Positions 8,018 to 15,050 of a stretch of 64,000 nucleotides of DNA are shown here, one piece after another. The DNA is taken from contig CAMHDS010000003.1 of assembly GCA_946183925.1 (NCBI GenBank), positions 1 to 64,000 of the forward strand. The letters run 5' to 3'. A program made the translations under genes and the position numbers. This stretch comes from an uncultured Fibrobacter sp. (GTDB taxonomy: Bacteria > Fibrobacterota > Fibrobacteria > Fibrobacterales > Fibrobacteraceae). Each line of letters begins with the position of its first letter. Positions within the stretch are counted from its first letter, which is position 1. Below the pieces are notes generated by a model that was not told the DNA's origin, searched no databases, and saw only the letters and a program-made list of their open reading frames with translations.

Positions 8018-9169
8018 ATGAATATCCTTGTGGTCAATTACCGCGACCGGCTGCACCCTGCCGCAGGGGGCGCCGAAAAGCACCTGCACCGCATCTTTTC
8101 GCAACTGGTAGATGCGGGCCACAAGGTCGTACTTTTTACGACGGCATTTGCAGGTTGCAAAAATCGTGAAACCGTCGATGGAATCGAAGTCGTCCGCAAA
8201 GGTGGCGACATGCTGTTCCAGCTTACCGTCGCCATGAACATCCGTAAACTGGACCGAGAATTCAATTTTGACGTGGTGGTAGAAGACCTGAACAAGCTTC
8301 CGCTATACACGCCATTCTGGATTAAAAAACCGGTGGTGGTGCAGATGCACCATCTGTGGCGCAGCTCCATTTTCCACGAGGCGTTTTTCCCGGTAGCGGC
8401 TGTGGTATGGGCCTTTGAACGAACCATACCCTGGTTCTACCGCAAACAGCCGTTTATCGTGGTAAGCCCAAGCACCAGACACGAACTCAAGGAAATCGGA
8501 ATAGACGGCAAGCGCATTTCCGTAATTTACAACGGCTCCGACAACAAAGGCGATCCCGACCCATCTACAGAAGTGCCGCCGCCAGAAGCCGAGGGCCTGC
8601 CCTACTTCTTGTGGCTTTCCCGCGTTCACCGTTACAAGGGAATCTGGACCGCGCTGGAGGCCTTTGAAAAATTTGCGTGGAAGCATCCCGACATCAAGCT
8701 CCTAGTGGCTGGAAACGGACCGCTCCTGAAAAAGATTCCTGCCTGGCTAAAGCAGCGCCGTCTTGAAAATCACGTGGTGCTTCTCGGGTATGTCAGTCCT
8801 TCCAAGAAACAACAGCTTCTTCGCCACGCCGTGGCCCTATTGCAGACCAGCTTCAAGGAGGGCTGGGGTCTTACCGTCGTAGAAGCCGCAAAACTTGGCA
8901 CCACCACCATCGCAAGCGATGTGCCTGGGCTTCGCGACAGCGTCAAGAACGGCGAAACCGGCCTTTTGTTCCCCATAGGAGATGCCCACACCTGCACTAT
9001 GGAAATGGAACGCCTCTACGGCGACGACGAATTGCGCTCCAGGCTCTCGCAAGAGGCACGCATCTACGCTGACGAATTCCGCTGGGATATCGCCGCCGAC
9101 CTGACATTCAGCCTTTTGCAAGATACGGTCATCCGTCACCGCGTGGCGGGAGGGGAATCCGATGAATAA
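8018..9169 (+). CDS. glycosyltransferase family 4 protein
   Basis: AAGGAEKHLHRI N-terminus and EGWGLTVVEAAKLGTTTIASDVPGLRDSVKNGETGLL C-terminal GT4 motif. Confidence 0.9.
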   Translation: MNILVVNYRDRLHPAAGGAEKHLHRIFSQLVDAGHKVVLFTTAFAGCKNRETVDGIEVVRKGGDMLFQLTVAMNIRKLDREFNFDVVVEDLNKLPLYTPFWIKKPVVVQMHHLWRSSIFHEAFFPVAAVVWAFERTIPWFYRKQPFIVVSPSTRHELKEIGIDGKRISVIYNGSDNKGDPDPSTEVPPPEAEGLPYFLWLSRVHRYKGIWTALEAFEKFAWKHPDIKLLVAGNGPLLKKIPAWLKQRRLENHVVLLGYVSPSKKQQLLRHAVALLQTSFKEGWGLTVVEAAKLGTTTIASDVPGLRDSVKNGETGLLFPIGDAHTCTMEMERLYGDDELRSRLSQEARIYADEFRWDIAADLTFSLLQDTVIRHRVAGGESDE

Positions 9170-10160
9170 TCGCCTGAAATCTTCCCTGATTTTTTTGCTG
9201 AAGCTGGTGGTGACCATCGTCCCTGCGTACTTTGTCTGCAGGAACATCGTGATGGACCCGGAGTGGAGCGTAGATGACCTTTATCGGCTGTTCGACGCCA
9301 AGAGCCTCTGGCCCCTGCTTGCAGCCATCCTCTGCCTTGCGGCGTCCAACTTTACGGCATGCCTCCAGTGGAAACTCCTGCTAGAAAAGCAGAACGTGAA
9401 ACTCAAGTACGGACACCTGCTGAAGCTTTACTACGTGGGCCTCTTCTTCAACAACTTTATGCCCGGAAACGTGGGCGGCGACGCCAAGAAAATTTACGAC
9501 ATCCGTATGCAGGGCGGCCAGGACACCGTCGGGGCGGGCCTTACCGCCACCTTCTTCGACAGGCTTTTTGGGCTATTCTTCATTACGCTGTTCGCCCTAG
9601 CGGTAGGACTTTTGTTCTTTATGCACGACGAAGCCCAGCGGGCATTCATGTGGCCGTCGCTGTGGATTTTCTTGGGATTTTGCGCCCTATTCGCCTCCCT
9701 GTTCAGCCGTAGACTGGGCAGACTCCTGTGCAAAATCCTGGAAAAAATTTTCCCCGCCAAAATCAATAGCCGACTAATCCACATGTTCGAGCGATTCCAG
9801 CAGTTCCGCTCGGCAAAGCTGTGGGCCCGCATCAGCGGGCTTTCGGCGGTGACCCAGGCACTCCGCATTCTGGTGCATTTCTTCTGCGGTATCGCCATCG
9901 GTGTGGAACTTTCCATTTCCTGGTATTTCTACTACATCCCGCTGGTGGCCATCGTCAGCGCCCTGCCTATTTCTATTGGCGGGTTTGGCCCCAGGGAACT
10001 GCTCGCCCAATCCCTGTTCGCCCGCGCCGGAGTGCCCGGTCTTGAATCGGTTGTAATCCAGCTGCTGGCCTATTTTGTAAGTTTGTTGTTGAGTCTGTTC
10101 GGAGGCTTCGCCTTTTTGCTGGGCGGCCGTCCGAATGTTTCGGACAAGGAAACCACCTAG
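9162..10160 (+). CDS. lysylphosphatidylglycerol synthase TM region / UPF0104 family flippase-like protein
   Basis: Polytopic; YYVGLFFNNFMPGNVGGDAKKIYDI and PISIGGFGPRELL are typical of the family; overlaps the GT4 gene. Confidence 0.85.
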   Translation: MNNRLKSSLIFLLKLVVTIVPAYFVCRNIVMDPEWSVDDLYRLFDAKSLWPLLAAILCLAASNFTACLQWKLLLEKQNVKLKYGHLLKLYYVGLFFNNFMPGNVGGDAKKIYDIRMQGGQDTVGAGLTATFFDRLFGLFFITLFALAVGLLFFMHDEAQRAFMWPSLWIFLGFCALFASLFSRRLGRLLCKILEKIFPAKINSRLIHMFERFQQFRSAKLWARISGLSAVTQALRILVHFFCGIAIGVELSISWYFYYIPLVAIVSALPISIGGFGPRELLAQSLFARAGVPGLESVVIQLLAYFVSLLLSLFGGFAFLLGGRPNVSDKETT

Positions 10161-10219: not shown

Positions 10220-12376
10220 ATGGATGCCGAAAGCATCTTAAAGGGTCTGAACGGCGACCAGCGCATGGCCGTCTTGCACGACCATAAACAAAACGGAGCC
10301 CTCCTGATTCTTGCAGGGGCGGGCTCGGGAAAAACGTCTGTACTGACCAAGCGGATCCAGTACCGTATTATGAGCGGGGTACAGCCCGAAAGGATTCTGG
10401 CCCTTACCTTCACCGCAAAGGCCGCAGCCGAAATGCGGGAACGGGTGGAGGCCCTTTTCCCGAAGGCTGGGGTGCGGCTCTGCACCTTCCATTCCCTCGC
10501 CCTGTTCATGCTCAAGCAGAAAATTGGCGAGAGCTTCGCCTACGAGATTCTCGGGTTCAACAAGATTCCCACCCCCAAGGAAACGGACCAGCGGGAATTC
10601 TTGCGGGAACTGACACGACTGAAAATTCCCGCCGCCAAGCTGAACCGGGAGGAATTTTTTTCGGATGACCTGCCAAGCTCCATCAAGAAAAAAATTTCGC
10701 CCCTACAGAAAAACGTTATTTTGTCTGGAAACGTAGTTTTCGAAGACCTGATCTACCTCGCCATTAGGCTACTGGAAACCTGCGAAAAGGCAAGAGAGTA
10801 CTTTCAGTCCCTGTGGGCAGAAATCTTGGTGGACGAATACCAGGACATCAACCCCTCCCAATACAGGCTGGTCAAGAACATTCTCGGAAACCGAAACGAC
10901 CTGTTCGTGGTTGGGGACGACGACCAGGCCATCTACGGCTTCCGCGGAGCAGACATCGGGAACATCCGGCGGTTTCAGGCGGACTTCAAGGACAGCACCC
11001 TCATCCGCCTGGAATGGAACTATCGCTCCGTACCGAACGTGCTGCACCTGGCCAACGACATCTTTACGAACAAGCCCGTAACCTTGCGGAAGGTTCTCCG
11101 GGCAGGAAACCCCAAGGGCTCCGGCGGCAACAGGATTTTTACCGAAAACCGCAGGCCCGAAGTCTGGGTGTCGGACAACCCCATCGAAGAAATCGAAAGG
11201 ATAAAGGCCGCCATTCATTCCCTGCGAGAAAACTATGGACTCCATTGGAAAAACTTCGCCATCTTGGTGCGGTACAACCGGCTGCGGCAATATTTCGAAG
11301 AGGCCCTGCGGGAATGCGAGCTGCCCATTGCCGGCGACCCCATGGCAGGCGATGAGGTGCTGGAAGACGGCATCCATATCGAGACGGTGCACGCCTCCAA
11401 GGGCCTCCAGTACGCCGTAGTCTTTTACGCAGGCCTTGCCGAAGGGTTCACGCCGGGCAAGTGCGAAGGCAACCGCAAGCAGCGCAAGGCCCAAATGGAC
11501 GAAGAAAGGCGGCTGTATTACGTAGGGGTGACCCGTGCCGAATCTTATTTGGTTTTGCTATATTGCAAGCAGAGGTATTGGAAAGGGAAACTGCTGAAAC
11601 TGAAACCTTCCAGGTTCCTGCCCCGCTACCCCAAGCAATCCCGATGGACTATGCCTGTTATCTTGTTTAGAATATACGTGGTGATTGTAGTGCTTGGCTA
11701 TATGCTTGTGCATATCCTTGCGCTGCCCTTTATCTTGGTTGCCTACGGAAAAAATTTCAACACCTGGCTCGAAGGAAAAATCCAGAAGTTCTCCCGATTC
11801 TGCATGAAGGTGCTGCGGGTGGACCTGGAAATAAAAGACCAGGCGATACTTTCCAAGGTGGACTGGAGCCGCCCCGTGTTTGTCATGGGGAACCACAATT
11901 CTTACGCCGACATTCCCGTGATGTTTTTGGCTATAGAACGAATCGTTGGGTTCATCGCCAAGGCTTCGCTCAGGTTCATTCCCTTCCTGAATTTCTGGAT
12001 GCACAAGATCGGCTGCATTTTCATCAACCGTAAAAAGGGTGGCGGCGGAGCGCTGATTCGTGACGCCATGGCATCTGGTCGTGCACCACGTCTCTGTCTG
12101 TTTCCCGAAGGCACCCGCGGAAAAAGCGAAGCCCTCTCGCCTTTCAAGAGCGGCGGCTTCAGGCTTGCGCTAGAGTCACACGCTATAGTGCTCCCTGTGG
12201 TTATCCGCGGCACTTCTGCCGTGTGGGAACGCCGCAAGAATACCGACCGCTGCAAAGTAACGGTCCAAATTCTTGAACCCATCGACGCAGGCGAAATTGA
12301 AAAACGCCAGGGCGACAACGACCCGAGAAAAGAACTGATGCCTCTGGTCCACTCCCGCATGGAGGCCGCCCTGTGA
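10220..12376 (+). CDS. fusion: UvrD/Rep-like SF1 helicase (2B region missing) + PlsC-type 1-acylglycerol-3-phosphate acyltransferase
   Basis: Helicase motifs LAGAGSGKTS, VDEYQDINPSQ, GDDDQAIYGFRGAD, VHASKGLQYAVVF, DEERRLYYVGVTRAE; then TM helix and acyltransferase motifs NHNSYAD, FPEGTRGK, in one uninterrupted 718-aa ORF. Confidence 0.9.
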   Translation: MDAESILKGLNGDQRMAVLHDHKQNGALLILAGAGSGKTSVLTKRIQYRIMSGVQPERILALTFTAKAAAEMRERVEALFPKAGVRLCTFHSLALFMLKQKIGESFAYEILGFNKIPTPKETDQREFLRELTRLKIPAAKLNREEFFSDDLPSSIKKKISPLQKNVILSGNVVFEDLIYLAIRLLETCEKAREYFQSLWAEILVDEYQDINPSQYRLVKNILGNRNDLFVVGDDDQAIYGFRGADIGNIRRFQADFKDSTLIRLEWNYRSVPNVLHLANDIFTNKPVTLRKVLRAGNPKGSGGNRIFTENRRPEVWVSDNPIEEIERIKAAIHSLRENYGLHWKNFAILVRYNRLRQYFEEALRECELPIAGDPMAGDEVLEDGIHIETVHASKGLQYAVVFYAGLAEGFTPGKCEGNRKQRKAQMDEERRLYYVGVTRAESYLVLLYCKQRYWKGKLLKLKPSRFLPRYPKQSRWTMPVILFRIYVVIVVLGYMLVHILALPFILVAYGKNFNTWLEGKIQKFSRFCMKVLRVDLEIKDQAILSKVDWSRPVFVMGNHNSYADIPVMFLAIERIVGFIAKASLRFIPFLNFWMHKIGCIFINRKKGGGGALIRDAMASGRAPRLCLFPEGTRGKSEALSPFKSGGFRLALESHAIVLPVVIRGTSAVWERRKNTDRCKVTVQILEPIDAGEIEKRQGDNDPRKELMPLVHSRMEAAL

Positions 12377-13182
12377 TAGGCGTCTTCGATTCTGGATTTG
12401 GCGGGCTCACTATCCTGCAAGACCTGCGGCGCTCACTGCCCGAGCACGATTTCTTGTACCTGGGCGACAACGCTCGCGCGCCCTACGGGAGCAGGAGTTT
12501 TGAGACCATCTTCCGCTACACCCTCCAGTGCGTGCGGGAACTTTTCAGCCGGGGCTGTCCCCTAGTGATTCTCGCCTGCAATACAGCATCGGCACGTGCA
12601 CTCCGGAGCATCCAGCAGCAGGTGTTGCCTGTAGAGTTTCCGGACAAGCGGGTGTTGGGCATCATCAGGCCCACCACCGAAGAAATCGGCAAGTTCAGCC
12701 GCACTGGGCACATCGGCATCTTCGCTACCGCAGGTACGGTATCGTCCAACAGCTACCAGATAGAAATCAGCCATTTCTTTCCGGAACTGAAGGTCACCCA
12801 GCACGCCTGCCCCATGTGGGTCCCCCTGGTAGAAAATGGCGAGATGGGCACGGAGGGCTCCCGCTTTTTTGTCAAGAAAGATGTAGAAGCGCTGCTCCAG
12901 AAAGACCCCGAAATAGACACCGTCCTTTTGGCCTGCACCCATTACCCCCTGCTGGAAAAGGAAATCCGGGAGGCGCTCCCCGCAGGAGTGAACCTGGTCA
13001 TCCAGGGCAAAATCGTGGCGGACAAGACCTTGGATTACCTGAACCGCCACCCCGAGATGGACGCCAGGCTTTCACGGTCCGGCAAGACCCGCTTTTTGAC
13101 CACGGATACCGCCAAATTCTTCGAAAAAGGGGCTAATCTGTTCGGAATGAAGGATATTTCGGCAGAGGCCCTCACTCTCTAG
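12373..13182 (+). CDS. murI: glutamate racemase
   Basis: MIGVFDSGFGGLTILQDLRRSLPEHDFLYLGDNARAPYG; ILACNTASA; LLACTHYPLL; GTG start overlapping upstream stop. Confidence 0.93.
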   Translation: MIGVFDSGFGGLTILQDLRRSLPEHDFLYLGDNARAPYGSRSFETIFRYTLQCVRELFSRGCPLVILACNTASARALRSIQQQVLPVEFPDKRVLGIIRPTTEEIGKFSRTGHIGIFATAGTVSSNSYQIEISHFFPELKVTQHACPMWVPLVENGEMGTEGSRFFVKKDVEALLQKDPEIDTVLLACTHYPLLEKEIREALPAGVNLVIQGKIVADKTLDYLNRHPEMDARLSRSGKTRFLTTDTAKFFEKGANLFGMKDISAEALTL

Positions 13183-13273: not shown

Positions 13274-13912
13274 ATGCCTAAGACACAAATCAATCTTGAA
13301 GGTTGGCAGGACTACCGTGGCAACGCCGCCGGCAGCCTGCTCTATGTGGAGACCAGTCACCAGTCCGAAATGCCCGTCCGCGACCAGCTCAACGAAAACG
13401 GCAAGGGCTTCTTTTACGAACCCAACTACGAGACCAGCACCTACGGTCTCATGAGTTGCTGCAACGTGAAAAATATCAACGCCATCGTCCGCGCCAAGAG
13501 CCGCTACATTCTGTTCGGCACCCGCTACGAAGGCCTCAGCGATTCCGAAATGCGCAACAAGTACCTGATTATGGGTTACATGCGCATCGACAAGGTGAAG
13601 GATGTTCGCACCCGCCATATCCAGCGCTACATGGCCAACCCCGAAATGCAGGAACCGGAATGCATGCAGATGGAACACAACTGGGCTGTCTATGGTCCCA
13701 TGCGTTTCGTCTCTATGGACGATTCCTTCGTGGTCACCGACGAAATCCTCAAGGAATGGGGATATAAGGGTCACGCCAGCCGCCAGCTCAAGGCCGTGTT
13801 CAACAAGGAACACCTGGAAAAGATTCTCTCCCACCTGGATTCCAAGCCCGACATGATCGACGAATACATCGCCACGGTAGATGAATTCAAGGAAGCCCTG
13901 GAAGAAGGCTAA
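13274..13912 (+). CDS. conserved hypothetical protein
   Basis: Complete ORF with codon bias of real genes and a downstream terminator. Confidence 0.7.
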   Translation: MPKTQINLEGWQDYRGNAAGSLLYVETSHQSEMPVRDQLNENGKGFFYEPNYETSTYGLMSCCNVKNINAIVRAKSRYILFGTRYEGLSDSEMRNKYLIMGYMRIDKVKDVRTRHIQRYMANPEMQEPECMQMEHNWAVYGPMRFVSMDDSFVVTDEILKEWGYKGHASRQLKAVFNKEHLEKILSHLDSKPDMIDEYIATVDEFKEALEEG

Positions 13913-14018: not shown

Positions 14019-15050
14019 TTACGCCAAGGAGTATTTCTGGCTGCGGCCGCCCTTCTCGTCGGATTTCAAGATGCCCTTGGCGATGAGTTTCTGGATAGTG
14101 CGGAGAGCCGTGTCGTGGCTCTGGTCGATAATTGCCGCCAGTTCTTTGGCGGTAAAACTTGCAGGAAGCGTTCCTGCAAACAGGGCGATAAAGAGCTTCT
14201 GGTCCTTTTCGTCGAAAGCCTCGCCGGCATGGCGATTGTAAAAGGCCGTCTTGCGCTGTTCCTTGAGAATGCGCTCCCGAGTGCTCGACATGGCAGCCTG
14301 CAAGGTTTCGATAAACCAGAGAATCCATTCCGTCAAATCGCCGTTTCCGCGCTGAGATGCATTGAGAATCTTGAAATACTCTTCGCGACGCTCCAGAAAG
14401 GCCTGATTCAAGGAGAACTGGCAGCGAGTAGTCTGCTCGCTGCGGGCTAGAGCCACGATGGTAAGAATCCTTGCCAGGCGGCCGTTGGCATCGGCGAAAG
14501 GCCTGAGGGTCGCAAACCAGAAATGGGCCACTGCCGCCTTGATGACGCCATCCATGCTGGAACTTTCCATCCATTGGATGTAGCGTTCCACCTCTTGCTC
14601 CAGACGTTCTGGATTGGGCCCTTCGAAATCCAGCTGAAGCTCACCCTGGCAGTATTGGACCGCACTGGGTGCAGCGCGAAAACTGGCCACCTTGTTCTGC
14701 CCCATAGAAGCGTGCCAAGCGAATAGACGTTCCTGAGTCAACGGGTTAAACGCCTTGGTGATGGCGGCAAGATAAATGCGTACCGCAGGGTCTGCCGACT
14801 GGGCAGAGCCTCCCTGAACAAGAGCCACTTGCTGCTCCACAAATGCCTTGTCCAGATGGATTCCGTCGATGGCGGAATTGGAGCAAATATCCTGAATCAA
14901 TAGCTCCTGCTCCAAATCCTGGAACCCGCAGGTCTCCATGGCGCCAATGAGCCTACCCTCTTGCAAGCGGGTTTCGCCAAGAGCATTCAGGACCTTCCGA
15001 GAATCGAACCGAAAGTGTGTCCAATCGGGATACTGATGGATATAGAGCAT
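14019..15050 (-). CDS. Fic family protein (DUF4172 type) with degenerate catalytic motif
   Basis: MLYIHQYPDWTHFRFD N-terminal DUF4172-like; HFWFATLRPFADANGRLAR replaces canonical HPFxDGNGR. Confidence 0.85.
   Translation of the reverse strand: MLYIHQYPDWTHFRFDSRKVLNALGETRLQEGRLIGAMETCGFQDLEQELLIQDICSNSAIDGIHLDKAFVEQQVALVQGGSAQSADPAVRIYLAAITKAFNPLTQERLFAWHASMGQNKVASFRAAPSAVQYCQGELQLDFEGPNPERLEQEVERYIQWMESSSMDGVIKAAVAHFWFATLRPFADANGRLARILTIVALARSEQTTRCQFSLNQAFLERREEYFKILNASQRGNGDLTEWILWFIETLQAAMSSTRERILKEQRKTAFYNRHAGEAFDEKDQKLFIALFAGTLPASFTAKELAAIIDQSHDTALRTIQKLIAKGILKSDEKGGRSQKYSLA

Follow-up and report, generated by a model that had tools for sequence, protein, structure and literature searches.

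A family-wide fusion of a 2B-less UvrD-like helicase and a PlsC-type acyltransferase in Fibrobacter and its relatives, with a candidate translation start at the junction

The fusion gene and its surroundings

The window analysed in this study is a 64,000-nucleotide stretch of DNA from an uncultured Fibrobacter sp. Positions 10220–12376 of its forward strand form a single uninterrupted open reading frame of 718 codons followed by a TGA stop codon. The initial annotation, made from the letters alone, had described this frame as the fusion of a helicase and an acyltransferase. The single frame, its coordinates and the motifs of both enzymes are borne out by the sequence and by Pfam, which places the UvrD-helicase and UvrD_C domains in front and the Acyltransferase domain PF01553 behind. 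The features of the locus are the following:

9162–10160, + strand: preceding gene, TIGR00374 flippase-like membrane protein (profile match)
10220–12376, + strand: fusion gene, 718 codons plus TGA (single open frame, with an orthologous single frame in each of the 80 genus genomes)
10220–11629, + strand: 2B-less UvrD/PcrA-like SF1A helicase half, residues 1–470 (PF00580 and UvrD_C; phmmer to PcrA, Rep and UvrD; AF2 and Foldseek)
10313–10336, + strand: motif I, Walker A AGAGSGKT, residues 32–39 (conserved in genus and family)
11330–11362, + strand: place of the missing 2B subdomain, residues 371–381 (11 residues versus 177 in PcrA)
11627–11650, + strand: unconserved, flexible junction linker, residues 470–477 (alignment; AF2 pLDDT below 50 at 471–479)
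11651–11653, + strand: internal ATG (M478), putative second translation start, without a Shine-Dalgarno site in the window (junction-codon conservation)
11651–12373, + strand: PlsC-type acyltransferase half, residues 478–718 (PF01553; 5KYM match; own clade in the tree)
11654–11749, + strand: N-terminal membrane helix region of the acyltransferase, residues 479–510 (Kyte-Doolittle maximum; AF2 helix 480–532)
11894–11911, + strand: acyltransferase motif H-X4-D, H559 and D564 (H and D invariant in 62 genes)
12101–12118, + strand: acyltransferase motif FPEGTR, residues 628–633 (F, P, E, G and R invariant in 62 genes)
12373–13182, + strand: next gene, murI, glutamate racemase (TIGR00067 above cut-off)

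The first half of the product matches PF00580 over residues 10–257 (2.8e-61; 208 bits versus a cut-off of 23) and UvrD_C with its best stretch at residues 383–451 (2.8e-27). The SF1A motifs I, II, III, IV, V and VI, including the arginine finger, are present, and the catalytic positions are invariant in 62 genes of the family. The Walker A motif is invariant in all 37 genomes of the genus that were read; across the 62 family genes residue 33 alone varies, being G or A. In the phmmer alignment with PcrA (1PJR), residues 4–370 correspond to 6–378 and residues 382–472 to 556–643. The 177 PcrA residues 379–555 are thus replaced by 11 residues, and the 2B subdomain is gone, as the initial annotation had claimed. 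UvrD relatives from other phyla served as the control for this gap: wherever both flanks aligned with the same profile, the relatives listed carry an insert of about 130–240 residues at the 2B place. The matches listed from other phyla comprise full-length UvrD only, and they are no guide to the spread of the 2B-less type or of the gene pair outside the phylum. 2B is likewise absent from those orthologues in other families of the phylum that were compared. The AF2 model of the helicase half has pLDDT values mostly above 90, and its top Foldseek match is PcrA 1pjr (E 3.5e-37). The half therefore shares motifs I–VI and the fold with the SF1A helicases PcrA, UvrD and Rep, but differs from them in the missing 2B subdomain and in being joined to an acyltransferase. 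Its score with the PcrA equivalog model (304 versus a cut-off of 911 bits) falls far short, as do those with the UvrD and Rep models. Longer UvrD-family proteins are also encoded in the genome of the window. Some members of the genus (G001, G006, G019, G020 and G035; loci L057–L061) have several tens of additional residues inserted after about residue 102, in the expected 1B subdomain.

A natural helicase of this kind has been described in Mycoplasma pneumoniae, whose PcrA-s (MPN340) is possibly the first natural SF1 helicase without 2B and unwinds DNA in vitro (PMC3720892). PcrA-s and the helicase half of the fusion are both natural 2B-less PcrA-like proteins; however, PcrA-s was reported as an unfused protein of one species, whereas the 2B-less type described here occurs in several families of the phylum.

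The second half matches PF01553 over residues 550–662 (1.5e-21; 77 bits versus a cut-off of 23). Residues 498–691 align with residues 27–218 of the 247-residue structure of a 1-acylglycerol-3-phosphate acyltransferase, 5KYM (E 9e-14), which implies that the N-terminal membrane part of the enzyme is present, and the fused acyltransferase begins at its normal N-terminus. Together with the motifs, this agrees with the earlier description of a complete acyltransferase. The most hydrophobic stretch of the whole protein starts at residue 487 (Kyte-Doolittle 2.6 over 19 residues). The AlphaFold model of the junction shows a flexible segment at residues 471–479, followed by a long helix from residue 480. 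The modelled acyltransferase core is unreliable because the alignment contained just two usable acyltransferase relatives, and the fold is thus argued from sequence. H-X4-D, FPEGTR, the N-terminal membrane helix region and the full length are all common to the fused half and to PlsC enzymes (TIGR00530, 5KYM), but the fused half sits covalently behind a helicase. It scores 87.1 with TIGR00530 versus a cut-off of 102.95, and the unfused orthologue of genus g5 scores 107.8. A standalone PlsC paralogue on contig C45 of the same genome reaches 104 bits, above the cut-off; at least one other PlsC is therefore encoded, and the fused copy need not be the sole lysophosphatidate acyltransferase. Lysophosphatidate is the predicted acceptor of the fused enzyme; other lysolipids are possible. 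A PlsC, FSU_0064, is listed in the envelope proteome of Fibrobacter succinogenes (PMC6851124) and may or may not be the fusion; a second membrane-proteome paper gave no match.

The GTG start codon of murI overlaps the TGA of the fusion as GTGA in the window. In the genus and in several other genera the order of genes is methyltransferase, usually glycosyltransferase, flippase-like protein, fusion, murI. In genera g15–g17 and g21 the fusion is present without these neighbours, so it is either older than the cluster or independent of it. The neighbours give no clear hint of its function. Beside murI lies a conserved gene for a 212-residue protein (13274–13912, + strand), which is about 87–98% identical within the genus and has no Pfam match. 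A Fic/DOC family protein with DUF4172 is encoded at 14019–15050 (- strand).

Distribution and origin of the fusion

Relatives were compared within the genus of the window (g1) and within its family (f1, presumably Fibrobacteraceae), counting related genomes as separate. In every one of the 80 genus genomes a single open frame runs through both halves, and the same holds for 28 of the 31 other family genomes. Two of the remaining three (G156 and G163) reach a contig edge before the junction. The third, G158 of genus g19, is 98% complete and is the sole family genome with neither half, which suggests that the gene may not be indispensable. Among the 65 relatives whose junction was read in sequence (37 from the genus and 28 from the rest of the family), none has a stop codon or frameshift there. 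The helicase halves are on average 65% identical in pairwise comparison and the acyltransferase halves 50%, and in both enzymes the catalytic residues do not vary, changes being confined to tolerated neighbours. There is one copy of the fusion per genome. The family forms a single clade in both trees, with a support of 98 for the helicase half and of 77 for the acyltransferase half, where G051 lies close by. Viral contigs held ordinary UvrD relatives only and no relative of the acyltransferase, and no plasmid record covered 80% of the fusion.

The initial annotation had allowed that the junction might be a recent read-through between two adjacent genes, or an artefact of an indel or of the assembly. 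Nothing speaks for these readings beyond the unusual pair of domains. Against them, the same junction recurs in independent assemblies of 108 species, about 59–97% identical within the genus, with motifs kept on either side. Recent read-through and artefact are thus ruled out by conservation, and we give them practically no weight. The arrangement of a stop codon plus a separate plsC start is found in neither the genus nor the family and occurs only in more distant members of the class.

Beyond this family, several families of the phylum encode the 2B-less helicase in a gene of its own, about 500 codons long (L038, L039, L041–L046, L049 and L051). In genus g5, of the same class, this gene is followed directly by the orthologous acyltransferase gene in all six genomes, and the TGA of the helicase overlaps the start of the acyltransferase, as RTGA in five and ATGCTGA in one. 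The overlap implies that the fusion most likely arose via the loss of the helicase stop codon. In f2, of the same order, and in f5 the acyltransferase does not adjoin the 2B-less helicase; the pair may be ancestral, with two later separations, or it may have formed more than once. A rimO-like gene lies close to the standalone helicase genes of f2, g5 and f5, and those of g5 and f5 also have a small lipoprotein-like gene nearby. From its distribution and the trees the fusion is read as old and of single origin, dating to the common ancestor of the family; the simplest account has just one such event, at the family's base.

The start codon at the junction

The plsC start had been placed near 11649, which requires a small correction: the start codon is at 11651. 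The codon of M478 is ATG, GTG or TTG in 62 of the 65 genes (57, 3 and 2, respectively); in the other three, ATG or GTG stands at the following codon. Eight genes thus depart from ATG at this place, five of them with GTG or TTG and three with a start codon next door. All five in-place start-type replacements at the junction are GTG or TTG; these codons make up 14 of the 149 replacing codons (9%) at eight other methionine columns. Unlike the start codon at its end, the short linker that joins the halves is not conserved.

In each of the ten other genera of the family a Shine-Dalgarno-like site precedes the junction start. The mean anti-Shine-Dalgarno pairing there is between -5.0 and -8.3 kcal/mol per genus, versus about -2.3 at the remaining codons of these genes, as scored without the genomes' own 16S 3′ ends, which could not be read. 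A pattern search for these ends matched nothing in any genome, probably owing to masked rRNA. The difference holds over genera (Wilcoxon p 0.001) and likewise against synonymous shuffles. The motif is encoded by different amino acids and in different codon phases: as a GAG codon after a codon with third base G (Leu, Gln, Pro or Ser), and as AAG-GAT, AGG-AGA and GGA-GGA. This variety looks like selection on the RNA; in genus g17 the site largely follows from the amino acids.

Within the genus of the window the pairing lies at background over 37 genomes (mean -3.4 versus -3.1), and the window itself has no Shine-Dalgarno site at the junction (+0.3). The two members of the genus without ATG at the junction have TTG and GTG, preceded by the stronger Shine-Dalgarno-like sites GAGGA and AAAGGA, respectively. 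When the frame is scanned in 20-codon windows, the synonymous A/T excess in this genus is greatest over residues 460–499 (0.24, about 4 standard deviations), and the RNA there is more open than that of synonymous shuffles. The start of the whole frame shows no comparable A/T excess. The signal at the junction may therefore have another cause, such as slowed or open translation during the insertion of the membrane helix.

At the junction, selection appears still to act on the former plsC start codon and, in genera other than that of the window, on its ribosome-binding site, so the single polypeptide of the initial annotation may be only half of the output of the gene. Judging from the codon and the site before it, the second start is probably used in the other genera. 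For the genus of the window, where it would be used via the open A/T-rich region and not via a Shine-Dalgarno site, the arguments for and against its use are about evenly balanced. Single genes in which an in-frame internal start gives two polypeptides are known from phage endolysins (PMC9430671) and from Cas11b (PMC11899642). The fusion has in common with them a start codon inside the frame at a domain boundary, preceded in the ten other genera by a Shine-Dalgarno-like site, and a common stop codon. It differs in that its second product is predicted only and in that its long product joins two unrelated enzymes.

Proposed products and function

We propose, with moderate confidence, that the fusion works as an old two-product gene of single origin, which would yield a membrane-tethered helicase-acyltransferase and a free acyltransferase. 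Ribosomes initiating at 10220 would make the full 718-residue protein, and some ribosomes initiating at 11651 would make a free acyltransferase of 241 residues. Since the catalytic residues are kept in both halves, both enzymes are presumably active. In PlsC enzymes the N-terminal helices are seated at the cytoplasmic leaflet, with the active site turned towards the cytosol. The corresponding helices of the long product would hold the helicase to the inner membrane on its cytoplasmic side. Both active sites would then lie in the cytosol, separated by the short flexible linker. The acyltransferase would convert lysophosphatidic acid into phosphatidic acid, and the motor would translocate 3′-5′ on single-stranded DNA. 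Without 2B this motor would be good at unwinding but poor at pushing proteins off DNA. The helicase RepDelta2B shows hyperactive unwinding, is deficient in protein displacement and has no accessory helicase function (PMC6158625). Its behaviour and that of PcrA-s (PMC3720892) make membrane-linked repair or fork processing a likelier task for the fusion than the removal of roadblocks. The free acyltransferase would supply extra enzyme and might pair with the long form.

The membrane-tethered helicase suggested earlier is supported as a real possibility, and a membrane helix does lie between the two enzymes; that the tethering is functional and not incidental is conceivable, with the balance falling just short of even. 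Functional coupling of the DNA motor to phospholipid synthesis is put forward as a hypothesis. In its most specific form, which we hold to be rather unlikely, the long product is a 2B-less helicase anchored in the membrane, and its acyltransferase domain forms an assembly with the free acyltransferase. The helicase would then act where phosphatidic acid is made (at membrane-linked replication forks, in segregation or in DNA repair), or the engagement of DNA would tune lipid synthesis.

The overlap of the unfused genes, the short, variable and flexible linker and the mixed functions of the neighbours would also fit an incidental fusion, in which the loss of a stop codon from an overlapping operon pair joined two enzymes with unrelated tasks, and these were kept together because their fusion does no harm and preserves co-expression. 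The retained internal start agrees with this as well, if free acyltransferase is needed. However, the gene has not been split again in any of the 108 fused genomes, though one substitution in the linker would suffice, and a DNA motor tied to the membrane is expected to carry some cost; we therefore regard an incidental fusion as doubtful, though it deserves serious attention. Somewhat less is to be said for a gene that makes the fusion only, its internal start being dead in the genus of the window and M478 being retained as the residue that opens the membrane helix of one bifunctional membrane protein. The background-level pairing over 37 genomes of the genus and the joint retention of M and P point that way; but the members without ATG have TTG and GTG together with stronger Shine-Dalgarno-like sites, and the synonymous A/T excess peaks exactly at the junction, which makes this reading unlikely.

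A membrane-anchored anti-phage defence protein, composed of a GajB-like helicase and a lipid-modifying effector, is suggested by the PADLOC models DRT RTasHel and GajB, which match the helicase half with 225 and 223 bits, and GajB chains match too. PcrA nevertheless scores higher, at 304 bits, and the gene is inherited vertically in the family-wide tree with its one copy per genome. Neither GajA nor a reverse transcriptase is found among the adjoining genes; the flippase-like protein gene and murI stand in the place where Gabija would have GajA. A role in defence is accordingly very improbable. The two-product gene remains the reading that we prefer.

No paper describing a UvrD-like helicase fused to an acyltransferase was found in our literature search. 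The parts themselves are of known kinds; what is new is that they are joined, that the fusion is fixed in a family and that the gene is likely built to give two products. The genes of the family and its relatives form a before-and-after series, from the overlapping gene pair through the fusion with an internal ribosome-binding site to the fusion in which this site has worn away. They also add many natural 2B-less SF1A helicases to the case described in Mycoplasma. In Bacillus subtilis the depletion of plsC lowers replication initiation at oriC (PMC4207641), and the fusion fixed throughout the family of Fibrobacter offers a natural test of a physical link between DNA transactions and membrane lipid synthesis.
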